Origin: Methanofollis sp. W23
Lineage (GTDB): Archaea; Halobacteriota; Methanomicrobia; Methanomicrobiales; Methanofollaceae
Direction: 5' to 3'
DNA length: 64,000 nt
Assembly (NCBI RefSeq): GCF_017875325.1
Contig: NZ_JAGGMN010000001.1
Span: forward strand, 1,178,001-1,242,000
The stretch's first letter is position 1. Every line of letters starts with the position of its first letter. The notes beneath the pieces are model-generated. The model was given only the letters and a program-made list of their open reading frames with translations. It was not told where the DNA came from and made no database searches. Below, in pieces: positions 43,420-47,781 of the stretch. A program made the position numbers and the translations under genes.

Positions 43420-44244
43420 TCAGGCGACACGCCGCCCGGTCGTCGGCCGGACGTGTATCCGCACCCGCTCATAGGCGGGATCGTCGTAGAGGTCGGCAGG
43501 GCCGACAAGCATCTGGTTGCGGACCGAGAACCCGAGGCAGGCGGTCTTCGGGCAGGTCGGGTTCATGTCGCAGAGGCTGACCGGCATGAGCCCTGACGCC
43601 GAAGCGACGCCAAGGGCGGTCACGACGTCCGGGAGGCCGGAACCCACCCTGAGGAGAAGGGCCGGGTCGGCACCCTGACCTGCGACGGCGGCCAGAACCC
43701 CGTCCCTTCGCCTGACCTCCTGTACCCTCCCGCCTGCGTCCAGATGGGCGAGGAGGGCGTAGGTCTCGTCAGGGGTGCAAAAGACCGCACCGCCGTCGCA
43801 GACGAACTCGAACCCCCGGCGCATCAGAGGGTCGCCAACCAGGCCCGAAGAGGTGAAGGGGTCGGCATAGAGCCTGGCAAAGATCTGGTCCCATGCCCCG
43901 GCCTCCGCCCCGCTGGTGAGGAAGACGAGCACCTCGGCCGCACTCTCCTCGCCGAGGGGAAGGGTGACGGTCTGCACCTCCCCTTCCCCGAAAACCCCGG
44001 TCTCTTTTGCGGTCTCTGCACATGCAGAGAGGACGTCATCACAGAGGGCGGCGACCTCCGCACCCTCCTGGTGAGTGACCACACAGGCGGTCCTCCCGCC
44101 GGCCCGCGTCACGAACGAGTCGGCGATCACCCCGCCGTGCTCGCCCCTGAACGCCTTTGCCGCCCGCTCGACGACGAGCGGATGGGCCCGCATCCCGGCC
44201 GGGTAGCCGCCGAGGTCGACGGTGAAGACCGTGACCGCATTCAT
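43420..44244 (-). CDS. Degenerate homologue of class V fructose-1,6-bisphosphate aldolase/phosphatase, probably inactive
   Basis: A 274-residue protein aligning with archaeal FBPA/P by eye: VFTVDLGGYPAGMRAHPLVV, GVIADSFVTRAGG, LYADPFTSSGLVGDPLMRRGFEF, FCTPDETYALLAHL, LLLRVGSGLPDVVTALG, GLMPVSLCDMNPT, CLGFSVRNQMLVGPADLYDDPAYERVR. Compared with the enzyme as I remember it, the metal-binding DD after ITHxG, the Gln of the GAGQDL segment, the DK pair and the Schiff-base Lys segment are missing, and ~100 C-terminal residues are absent. It overlaps the class I FBPase stop codon (ATGA), so it is made with it, perhaps as a regulator or binding partner. Confidence 0.75.
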   Translation of the reverse strand: MNAVTVFTVDLGGYPAGMRAHPLVVERAAKAFRGEHGGVIADSFVTRAGGRTACVVTHQEGAEVAALCDDVLSACAETAKETGVFGEGEVQTVTLPLGEESAAEVLVFLTSGAEAGAWDQIFARLYADPFTSSGLVGDPLMRRGFEFVCDGGAVFCTPDETYALLAHLDAGGRVQEVRRRDGVLAAVAGQGADPALLLRVGSGLPDVVTALGVASASGLMPVSLCDMNPTCPKTACLGFSVRNQMLVGPADLYDDPAYERVRIHVRPTTGRRVA

Positions 44245-45146
44245 CGCCTGGTCCCTTCGAAGGCCGCTTCCACTTTCTGGATCATCCCCGGGCTCCCGAC
44301 ATAGATAGGCGTGCGCTGGTGCGGTTTTTCAGGGAGGATGTCGAGAAGACTCTGGCGGCCGTCCGAAGTTCTCCCTCCCGCCTGCTCGGCGATGAACCCA
44401 ATGGGGATGGCCTCATAGAGGAGACGGAGTTTGCCGTTCGGTTTCTCTTCGAGGGCCGGGTAACAGTAGATCCCGCCATAGGTAAGGATCTGGTGGAAGT
44501 CGGCCACGAAGGATCCGGTGTATCTGATCTTTGCCCCATCGGCCTCGATCTCTTCGATGAAGGCGCGGTGAGGGACGACCCAGGTCGGGCGCGTCCCGCC
44601 GGTGCCGTAGTTCTTTCCTTCCGGGATCGTCATGTTCTGGTGGAGGAGACGGTACTCCCCATCTTTGTCCAGCGCAAAGACCTGCACCCCCTGCCCGACC
44701 GAGAGGGTGAGCGTGGTCATCGGGCCGTAGAGCATATAGAGGGCGGCTTTCAGGTTTCTTCCCTTCTGCATCACGCTGCCCCCGCCAAAGATCCCGATGA
44801 TCGTCCCGACTGAGAGATTGGTCTGGATGAGGGACGACCCGTCCATCGGGTCCATCACGACGGCGTACTCATGGGCAGAGTCAGGGAAGACCGCCACCTC
44901 CTCCTGCTCCTCAGAGGCGAGTTCCCTGACCAGCCCCGACTCCCCGAGGACGCGGGTGATCCAGGCGTCAGCCCAGGTGTCCATTGCGGCCTGTTGCTCC
45001 CCGAAGACGTTCTCGGTATCGACATAGGCCTGATGGGTGATGAAGGCCTCTCTGATCGGGGTCGCCTGTCCGGCGATGAGTATGATAAGGTTCTGCAGTC
45101 CGGCCTCGCAGTCTACGGACTCCAGATATTCGCGCAGTGTCGTCAT
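44241..45146 (-). CDS. fbp: Class I fructose-1,6-bisphosphatase
   Basis: Hydrolyses fructose-1,6-bisphosphate to fructose-6-phosphate in gluconeogenesis. 301 residues with the class I active-site motif DPMDGSSLIQTNLSVGTIIGIF, metal-ligand ELASEEQ region, GGTRPTW, FVADFHQILTYGGIYCYP and PIGFIAEQAGGRTSDG with the catalytic substrate-binding Glu/Gly loop. The ATG at 45146 is chosen over an upstream TTG because CGGAG lies ~10 nt before it. It follows class I aldolase by 83 bp and overlaps the degenerate FBPA/P homologue. Confidence 0.93.
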   Translation of the reverse strand: MTTLREYLESVDCEAGLQNLIILIAGQATPIREAFITHQAYVDTENVFGEQQAAMDTWADAWITRVLGESGLVRELASEEQEEVAVFPDSAHEYAVVMDPMDGSSLIQTNLSVGTIIGIFGGGSVMQKGRNLKAALYMLYGPMTTLTLSVGQGVQVFALDKDGEYRLLHQNMTIPEGKNYGTGGTRPTWVVPHRAFIEEIEADGAKIRYTGSFVADFHQILTYGGIYCYPALEEKPNGKLRLLYEAIPIGFIAEQAGGRTSDGRQSLLDILPEKPHQRTPIYVGSPGMIQKVEAAFEGTRR

Positions 45147-45229: not shown

Positions 45230-46147
45230 TTAGTTGCCCTTCAGGAGCGCAAGGGCGTCCTCGACCGAGGCGTCGTCGAGGGTGATGGCCGAGATGGCAT
45301 TGCACATCCTGACCGCCTCGTCGAAGGACTTCTGGTGGATGTTGCGGCCGGTGGCGTTCCCCCGCGCACCGCCGGTGTGGATCTGGTCGTAGAGTTGCCT
45401 GAGGAAGGCCTCTTCGTCGACGCTCGACCCGCCGGCGCATACGACCGAGGTTCGGCCTGCGGCAAGGGTCGCTTCCTTGAGGAGGTCGGCGGAGGCGGCG
45501 CCCTCTTTCTTGGGAGCGTTCACCTTGACGAAGTCTGAGCCCAGGCACGCAGCGACGCCGGTCGCCCCGGCGATGAGGTGAGGATCTTTCTCGTCCTTGA
45601 CCGCCGAGCCCCTTGGGTAGATCCAGAGCACGGTGACCAGGCCGTGCTGGTGGGCCTCGTTGACGACTTCGGCCGCTTCGGCAAGCATCCGGTCCTCGAA
45701 CTCAGAGCCAAGATAGATGGTGTAGCCGACGCCGGCGATCGTGAGCCCACTCTGCTCACGGAACCGAACGACCTGCTCGACAGTGGTGAGGAGCGGGCTG
45801 ACCGGATCATTCTGGGCGGTCTTGACCAGGTTGGTCTTGGAGTTGAGTTTGACGAGATAGGGTACTTCGGGATAGTCGGGGCCGTACCTCGCGACAAGCC
45901 CGATCTGGGTCGCAAAGACCCCGATGCGCCCCTGCGCCGCGACTCTGAAGAGATGTTCTGGGTCGGCGTCGTCTGCCGGGATCCCTTTGCCGTAAAAGTC
46001 GCTGTTGAGGTGTTCGATCTTCTGGTCTCCGGCAAAGAGCATCAGGCGGCCGGTGCCGTGGGTGATGGTGGTGAGGTTCTTGATATAGATCTCCCGCGCC
46101 GTCTCTGGGACGTCGGCGGGGACGGAAATGGAAGCCTGTGAAGACAT
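45230..46147 (-). CDS. Class I fructose-bisphosphate aldolase (archaeal DhnA type)
   Basis: Schiff-base aldolase joining glyceraldehyde-3-phosphate and dihydroxyacetone phosphate. 305 residues; motifs MLFAGDQKIEHLN, PYLVKLNSKTNLV, GVGYTIYLGSEFEDRML, VLWIYPRGSAVKDEKDPHLIAGA, SDFVKVNAPK with the likely catalytic Lys, VVCAGGSSVDEEAFLRQL and GARGNATGRNIHQKSFDEA. A TATA-like AAGTATACGG ~27 bp before the ATG suggests a leaderless mRNA. First gene of the gluconeogenic operon with fbp. Confidence 0.92.
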   Translation of the reverse strand: MSSQASISVPADVPETAREIYIKNLTTITHGTGRLMLFAGDQKIEHLNSDFYGKGIPADDADPEHLFRVAAQGRIGVFATQIGLVARYGPDYPEVPYLVKLNSKTNLVKTAQNDPVSPLLTTVEQVVRFREQSGLTIAGVGYTIYLGSEFEDRMLAEAAEVVNEAHQHGLVTVLWIYPRGSAVKDEKDPHLIAGATGVAACLGSDFVKVNAPKKEGAASADLLKEATLAAGRTSVVCAGGSSVDEEAFLRQLYDQIHTGGARGNATGRNIHQKSFDEAVRMCNAISAITLDDASVEDALALLKGN

Positions 46148-47193: not shown

Positions 47194-47430
47194 ATGGTCA
47201 ACAGTATCGTTCTGCCGGTCAAGAAGGTTTTTTCGCTTGTCGATTCCAGGATCGTCGTTGAGATCAAGGACGAAGGGAAGAAACTTCAGGGCAGGCTCGT
47301 CGCGGTCGACGAACACATGAACCTGCACATGGATGAGACGATCGAGTACAACGGCGACCAGCGGGGGCGCACCCTCGGCACGGTCGTCATCAGAGGGAAC
47401 AACATCCTGACAATCTCACCTCTTGTCTGA
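47194..47430 (+). CDS. LSm (Sm-like) RNA-binding protein
   Basis: A 78-residue archaeal Sm-like protein that assembles into a heptameric ring binding U-rich RNA. Sm1 motif: RIVVEIKDEGKKLQGRLVAVDEHMNLHMDET; Sm2 motif: GTVVIRGNNILTISPL. Aromatic and Asn residues of the RNA pocket (H-M-N, R-G-N) are present. It is followed 6 bp downstream by a winged-helix gene, so both are probably on one leaderless mRNA. Confidence 0.95.
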   Translation: MVNSIVLPVKKVFSLVDSRIVVEIKDEGKKLQGRLVAVDEHMNLHMDETIEYNGDQRGRTLGTVVIRGNNILTISPLV

Positions 47431-47436
47431 TGGGCC

Positions 47437-47781
47437 ATGCCGTCTATCGAAGATGAAGCACTGAAAGTTATCCAGTCCAGATCTGAAGGAGTGCTCCAGA
47501 GCGAACTCTGGAAACTTCTCAACATCGACAGCCGGAAGTGCTCAAGGGTCGTGCGCAGACTTGCCGACGCCGGTCTCATCGACCGCATCGAGTTCAGGGA
47601 AGAGGGGATCAAGACCTACCGTCTCAAGGCACGGCAACAGGCGGCCGACCCCTCGTTGCTCCTGGCAGGGGACGAACTGATCCCCTGCATCGGCTGCGAA
47701 CTCGACTGCAATGTCGAGCAATGCCCCCTCCTCATGGACTGGATGTATGAACTTGCAATCGCTGAGATGAGCAGCGAGTAA
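47437..47781 (+). CDS. Winged-helix protein with C-terminal four-cysteine motif
   Basis: A 114-residue protein with an MarR/Lrp-like winged helix (EDEALKVIQSRSEGVLQSELWKLLNIDSRKCSRVVRRLADAGLIDR) and wing (EGIKTYRLK). The C-terminus has CIGCELDCNVEQCPLLMDWMYELAI, a C-x2-C-x3-C-x4-C cluster that could hold a zinc ion or Fe-S cluster and make DNA binding redox- or metal-sensitive (inference). It sits 6 bp after the LSm gene. Confidence 0.85.
   Translation: MPSIEDEALKVIQSRSEGVLQSELWKLLNIDSRKCSRVVRRLADAGLIDRIEFREEGIKTYRLKARQQAADPSLLLAGDELIPCIGCELDCNVEQCPLLMDWMYELAIAEMSSE

Follow-up and report, generated by a model that had tools for sequence, protein, structure and literature searches.

What role is left to an enzyme homologue that has lost almost its entire active site and is still kept, under selection, behind the unrelated enzyme that took over its reaction? 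The question is raised by a pair of overlapping genes in the window, a 64,000-nucleotide stretch of DNA from Methanofollis sp. W23. The bifunctional fructose-1,6-bisphosphate aldolase/phosphatase (FBPA/P) forms an octameric assembly that carries both activities, and enzyme-derived non-catalytic subunits (pseudoenzymes) exist. A proposal by Say and Fuchs (2010), cited in PMC3267732, makes FBPA/P the ancestral pacemaking enzyme of gluconeogenesis. Literature searches of open papers listed none that describes a degenerate FBPA/P. Within one archaeal order, the displacement of this enzyme can be traced through copies that are intact and alone, intact behind their replacements, partly eroded, fully eroded yet selected, and cleanly lost. 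With this series one can ask, in testable form, what keeps a displaced enzyme in place and if it may turn into a subunit of an unrelated successor.

Organization of the locus

The features of the locus, all on the minus strand, are as follows.
43420..44244, minus strand: degenerate FBPA/P homologue (PF01950), the 274-residue pseudoenzyme; from the ORF, Pfam, PDB match, active-site count and model
43477..43584, minus strand: best-conserved stretch of the degenerate family, residues 221-256 (PVSLCD ... LGFS...L.GPADL.DDP); from the alignment
43666..43677, minus strand: remains of the Schiff-base loop, pseudoenzyme residues 190-193; canonical Y229 and K232 absent
44241..44244, minus strand: ATGA stop/start overlap from fbp into the pseudoenzyme gene; offset of -4 in 12/12 Methanofollis genomes
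44241..45146, minus strand: class I fructose-1,6-bisphosphatase (FBPase) gene fbp (PF00316 + PF18913), 301 residues; from Pfam, with catalytic motifs recognized by eye in the alignment
45230..46147, minus strand: DhnA/DeoC-type class I fructose-bisphosphate aldolase, 305 residues; from family profiles, with 4moz as the closest solved structure

The aldolase gene comes first, 83 bases ahead of fbp, and is followed by fbp and the 274-residue ORF. The fbp gene starts with the ATG at 45146 and stops at 44241-44243; the pseudoenzyme ATG (44244-44242) runs into this stop as ATGA. The ORF coordinates thus bear out the three genes, their strand, the 274-residue length, the overlap and the aldolase at the head of the operon, as described in a sequence-only reading of this DNA. 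Profiles place the FBPase and the aldolase in normal enzyme families. A class II aldolase was not found in the Methanofollis sp. W23 genome. The genome contains one gene of the PF00459 inositol-phosphatase family, which could be an extra source of FBPase activity.

Fold and missing segments

The pseudoenzyme matches the Pfam FBPase_3 family (PF01950) with an E value of 1.7e-28 and 100.3 bits (cut-off 25), and PDB entries 1umg/3r1m with E values of about 1e-22. AlphaFold2, given the window protein with 50 relatives, produced a model with a mean pLDDT of 93.1. Comparison of the model with 1umg yielded a TM score of 0.89 with Foldseek, and a Z score of 33.7 and an rmsd of 3.0 over 274 aligned residues with VIA. 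The FBPA/P scaffold is therefore kept, as the sequence-only reading had proposed with a structure-based alignment as the check. Chance similarity and membership of a different family are ruled out by the Pfam, PDB, Foldseek and VIA matches.

The same reading had about 100 residues missing from the C-terminus. Of the roughly 91 residues that the pseudoenzyme lacks compared with a 365-residue canonical copy, only about 35 (net) were lost from the C-terminus and about 56 (net) from within the protein; a C-terminal loss is real, and its extent was overestimated. The loops of Q95 and of the Schiff base are among the internal losses. An alignment that includes 22 degenerate copies shows that these retain the N-terminal GG motif, D42, PVS.C and the LGF...L.GP.DL.D stretch. 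Residues invariant among the degenerate copies are mostly conserved in FBPA/P enzymes too, and no new polar motif common to the degenerate copies was seen in this alignment.

The score against the NCBIfam equivalog FBP_aldo_phos (95.4 bits) is far under the cut-off of 520. Pfam labels the pseudoenzyme a fructose-1,6-bisphosphatase, which is almost certainly wrong and calls for caution in annotation pipelines.

Erosion of the active site

The FBPA/P active site, which we take to consist of D11, H18, D52, D53, Q95, D132, K133, Y229, K232, D233, D234, Q241/242, R265, D286 and Y348, was scored at 15 positions (12, 19, 52, 53, 94, 131, 132, 227, 230, 231, 232, 240, 264, 285 and 346 in the numbering of L082). 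Y229 is named in the title of structure 3t2g. Only two of the 15 positions, D10 and D193, are left in the window copy; the equivalents of the Schiff-base Lys and Tyr, His18, Asp52/53, Gln95, Lys133, Arg265 and Asp286 are gone. The loss of metal ligands and of the Schiff-base Lys segment, noticed earlier by eye, is thereby confirmed, and 13 lost positions make the protein, as far as its sequence can tell, probably non-catalytic.

Erosion on this scale was confined to one order in the material covered. A GTDB scan of 84,980 species, made with the degenerate profile and one peptide pattern and thus no census, gave 351 loci, of which the best 80 were examined. These come from many phyla of archaea and bacteria. 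All 15 positions are kept in 69 of the 80; among the other 11, one contig-cut copy keeps 14, one keeps 13, and nine keep 1-3, all nine belonging to Methanomicrobiales. In 119 genomes of the phylum, the sole truncated-looking match outside the order is split across two contigs (G230), and four matches from outside the order that were checked keep 14 or 15 positions. Within the order, 36 of 70 apparently intact FBPA/P copies were checked; 35 keep all 15 positions and one keeps 14.

Between these extremes lies a graded series, from full-length proteins with 8-10 of the 15 positions (L072-L075) to forms of 298-316, 258-274 and 214-223 residues with 0-3, the short forms shown having 0-2. Certain active-site losses vary by lineage, which is expected under relaxed constraint as well as under a new role. 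Three full-length copies adjoin fbp (L072:5571-6671, L073:514-1614 and L074:5297-6397); their first metal ligands and Gln95 are changed and the Schiff-base Lys is kept. Judged by these residues, they are possible phosphatase-dead, aldolase-competent intermediates.

Distribution across Methanomicrobiales

PF01950 genes were tallied by hand in 150 genomes of Methanomicrobiales, genomes absent from the match listings being assigned by elimination. The gene is degenerate in 46 genomes, full-length and eroded in 4, apparently intact in 70 and absent from 30. The degenerate carriers comprise 12 Methanofollis (f1/g1), 33 Methanocorpusculaceae (f6) and one member of family f5. The degenerate gene is present in all 12 sampled Methanofollis, in Methanocorpusculaceae and in a few Methanoregulaceae, and it is kept in every sampled genome of Methanofollis and of two f6 genera. 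Three of the eroded full-length copies belong to f2/g13 (9-10 of 15 positions) and one to f5/g12 (8 of 15). In Methanofollis sp. W23 itself, a search for an intact FBPA/P elsewhere in the genome found none; the window gene is its sole PF01950 copy.

The state of this gene follows the FBPase. The FBPase type of the window occurs in 76 of the 150 genomes; of these, 45 have a degenerate PF01950 gene, three an eroded one and one (G116) an intact one, and 27 have none. Another 14 genomes have a second FBPase type, 43-48% identical to that of the window; twelve of them keep PF01950 intact, one has an eroded copy and one has no copy. Neither type is found in the remaining 60, of which 57 have an apparently intact FBPA/P, two are incomplete MAGs without PF01950 and one (G109) has a fragment of the degenerate gene at a contig edge in a broken assembly. 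Intact FBPA/P and the window-type FBPase are nearly mutually exclusive (57/60 versus 1/76). Together with the degenerate state of the sole PF01950 copy and the presence of class I FBPase and aldolase in the window, this upholds the earlier view that separate enzymes replaced the bifunctional one. An aldolase orthologue (E below 1e-60) accompanies the window-type FBPase in 73 of the 76 genomes. Many f4 genomes combine such an orthologue with an intact FBPA/P; thus, aldolase alone does not track erosion.

Family f2 shows clean loss of PF01950 in 25 of 28 genomes. Profile searches for a pseudoenzyme remnant after fbp covered 30 loci; the 26 loci from f2 and f5 that have no PF01950 gave only short matches at chance level, and other small ORFs come next to fbp there.

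Selection and linkage to fbp

Constraint on the protein was measured as NG86 dN/dS for pairs with dS of 0.05-1.5. The median for the pseudoenzyme is 0.38 in Methanofollis (60 of 66 pairs, maximum 0.55), 0.14 in f6/g16, inferred to be Methanocorpusculum (61 of 300 pairs), and 0.13 in f6/g6, Methanocalculus including M. taiwanensis (3 of 21 pairs). The corresponding values for fbp are 0.27, 0.06 and 0.12, and that for the aldolase in Methanofollis is 0.15. Across 13 close pairs, third positions carry 674 of 1094 differences, and every pair shows the excess. The pseudoenzyme is thus constrained, more loosely than fbp and aldolase. Not one of the 45 assessable degenerate copies has an interrupted frame. 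The statement that the old gene has been kept is therefore accurate, and under purifying selection the pseudoenzyme is no plain relic. In f6/g16 the protein occurs in forms of 277-285 and 214-223 residues, so that shortening goes on. The short forms (for example L081:5527-6171) are without the mid-fold, approximately canonical residues 143-190, and are still under selection; they are perhaps the minimal scaffold.

Linkage to fbp is strict. Each of the 45 assessable degenerate copies comes immediately after fbp, in the same orientation (a contig end truncates fbp in L039). Among the nine degenerate loci in the best 80 of 351 from the GTDB scan, eight lie directly after fbp and the ninth is cut by a contig end. 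The start is offset from the fbp stop by -4 in all 12 Methanofollis, by -1 to +19 in f6/g16 (25 copies), by +6 to +12 in f6/g6 (7 copies) and by +5 in L051. The ATGA-type overlap is accordingly found in all 12 Methanofollis, and none of that kind occurs in f6. The order aldolase, fbp, FBPA/P, which was to be looked for in other Methanomicrobiales, recurs within the genus and in L051, L127, L140 and L086. In f6 the aldolase is located elsewhere, and the adjacency of fbp and pseudoenzyme is nevertheless kept. In L086 the FBPA/P at the end of the row is intact (15/15), and this locus likely represents the ancestral stage.

Role of the retained protein

The pseudoenzyme shares family, fold and order of conserved segments with the FBPA/P structures from Sulfolobus tokodaii (1umg/3r1m) and Thermoproteus neutrophilus (3t2b-3t2g). 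Unlike these enzymes, it stands behind a class I FBPase, has lost internal loops and about 35 net residues at the C-terminus, and retains just two of the 15 active-site positions. That FBPase (PF00316), the product of the overlapping gene, belongs to another family, performs one of the two lost reactions and is the replacement. As in pseudoenzyme subunits in general, selection keeps a dead homologue whose gene accompanies that of an active enzyme in the same pathway. Here, however, the neighbour is no paralogue; it is a member of the unrelated family that took over the reaction.

We take the gene for the old bifunctional enzyme, converted into a conserved pseudoenzyme. The sequences show that a class I FBPase and a class I aldolase are there to supply both reactions formerly performed by FBPA/P, and that the FBPA/P downstream of fbp has lost almost its entire active site, retains its fold core and has a protein sequence still under selection. 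We propose that this protein, translated along with FBPase by way of the overlapping start, would bind FBPase as a non-catalytic subunit and stabilise or regulate it. Selection that still preserves a dead protein suggests a non-catalytic helper role, and strict linkage, translational overlap and constraint point to FBPase as the most likely partner. The replacement and the retention as a pseudoenzyme, both part of the first interpretation, are well supported; for the conserved pseudoenzyme as a co-made, bound subunit of FBPase, we see about an even chance. FBPase as such does not need the pseudoenzyme, since 27 of the 76 FBPase genomes have no PF01950 at all.

This last count also suits a selected pseudoenzyme whose role has nothing to do with binding FBPase, such as a metabolite sensor or a partner of a different protein, the adjacency to fbp being ancestral and serving only co-expression with gluconeogenesis. 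The intact copy behind aldolase and fbp in L086 makes the adjacency older than the erosion, as such a role would have it. Nonetheless, the adjacency survives in every assessable degenerate copy, even in f6 with its relocated aldolase, and no new shared polar motif was seen, the invariant residues being mostly ones that the enzymes conserve as well. We regard a role apart from FBPase as a plausible but rather unlikely explanation. It is improbable that the gene is a functionless relic, decaying slowly and seen before its loss, with f2 as the end state. The graded erosion from full-length copies with 8-10 positions to 214-223-residue forms with 0-3, and the clean loss in 25 of 28 f2 genomes, are what slow decay would produce; however, 45 copies without one interrupted frame, dN/dS well under 1 in three groups, an excess of third-position changes that extends to the shortest forms and retention in all sampled genomes of Methanofollis and two f6 genera argue against it. 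Least probable is residual or new catalytic activity. D10 and D193 remain and the fold is predicted to be intact, but the Schiff-base Lys and Tyr and the other equivalents listed above are gone, and the short forms keep 0-2 of the 15 positions.

For the FBPase-subunit reading, the FBPase itself was also compared between loci. FBPases with and without a pseudoenzyme neighbour differ consistently at just 3 alignment positions (80% threshold), which gives no plain sign of a partner-binding surface.

Probable repeated displacement

A second cassette, found in Methanoregulaceae and further f5 genomes, combines another class I FBPase, 43-48% identical to that of the window, with a class II aldolase (PF01116). 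It was seen at 16 loci (L113-L116, L002-L004, L006, L007, L011, L023, L075, L076, L120, L124 and L108), which include two pairs showing the same place. FBPA/P is the next gene at 15 of the 16 and is mostly intact, with 8/15 positions in L075 and 13/15 in L124; in L108 it is gone.

Trees were computed from subsets of 60 FBPA/P rows, with 27 of 45 degenerate copies, and 56 FBPase rows. The degenerate copies are grouped in the FBPA/P tree (100/99), but long branches meet there. In the FBPase tree, L127 and L140, which have a degenerate FBPA/P, group with L086, which has an intact one. A single clade of the FBPases from degenerate loci is rejected by the FBPase data (p-AU 3.7e-5), and a single clade of L086, L127 and L140 is rejected by the FBPA/P data (p-AU 0.03). 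The conflict may reflect either several erosions or operon transfer. The positions of the f2/g13 copies and of the f5 copies of the class II cassette in the FBPA/P tree support their probable erosion apart from the main group. Tentatively, and with more doubt than confidence, we suggest that installation of FBPase and aldolase upstream has repeatedly led to FBPA/P being stripped and recruited as a subunit of its unrelated displacer, several times in Methanomicrobiales, with the second cassette now entering this path.

L107 and L109, the two f5 FBPases without a PF01950 neighbour, have branch lengths of 0.94 and 0.75, longer than any others in the FBPase tree. Past the aldolase of the window, on the opposite strand, a pair of LSm and winged-helix genes lies at 47194-47781. 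In the f2 loci L087-L105, ORFs of 80 and about 120 residues come directly after fbp and are, by size, perhaps the same pair. These small ORFs and the LSm pair of the window hint at an older fbp-LSm neighbourhood.
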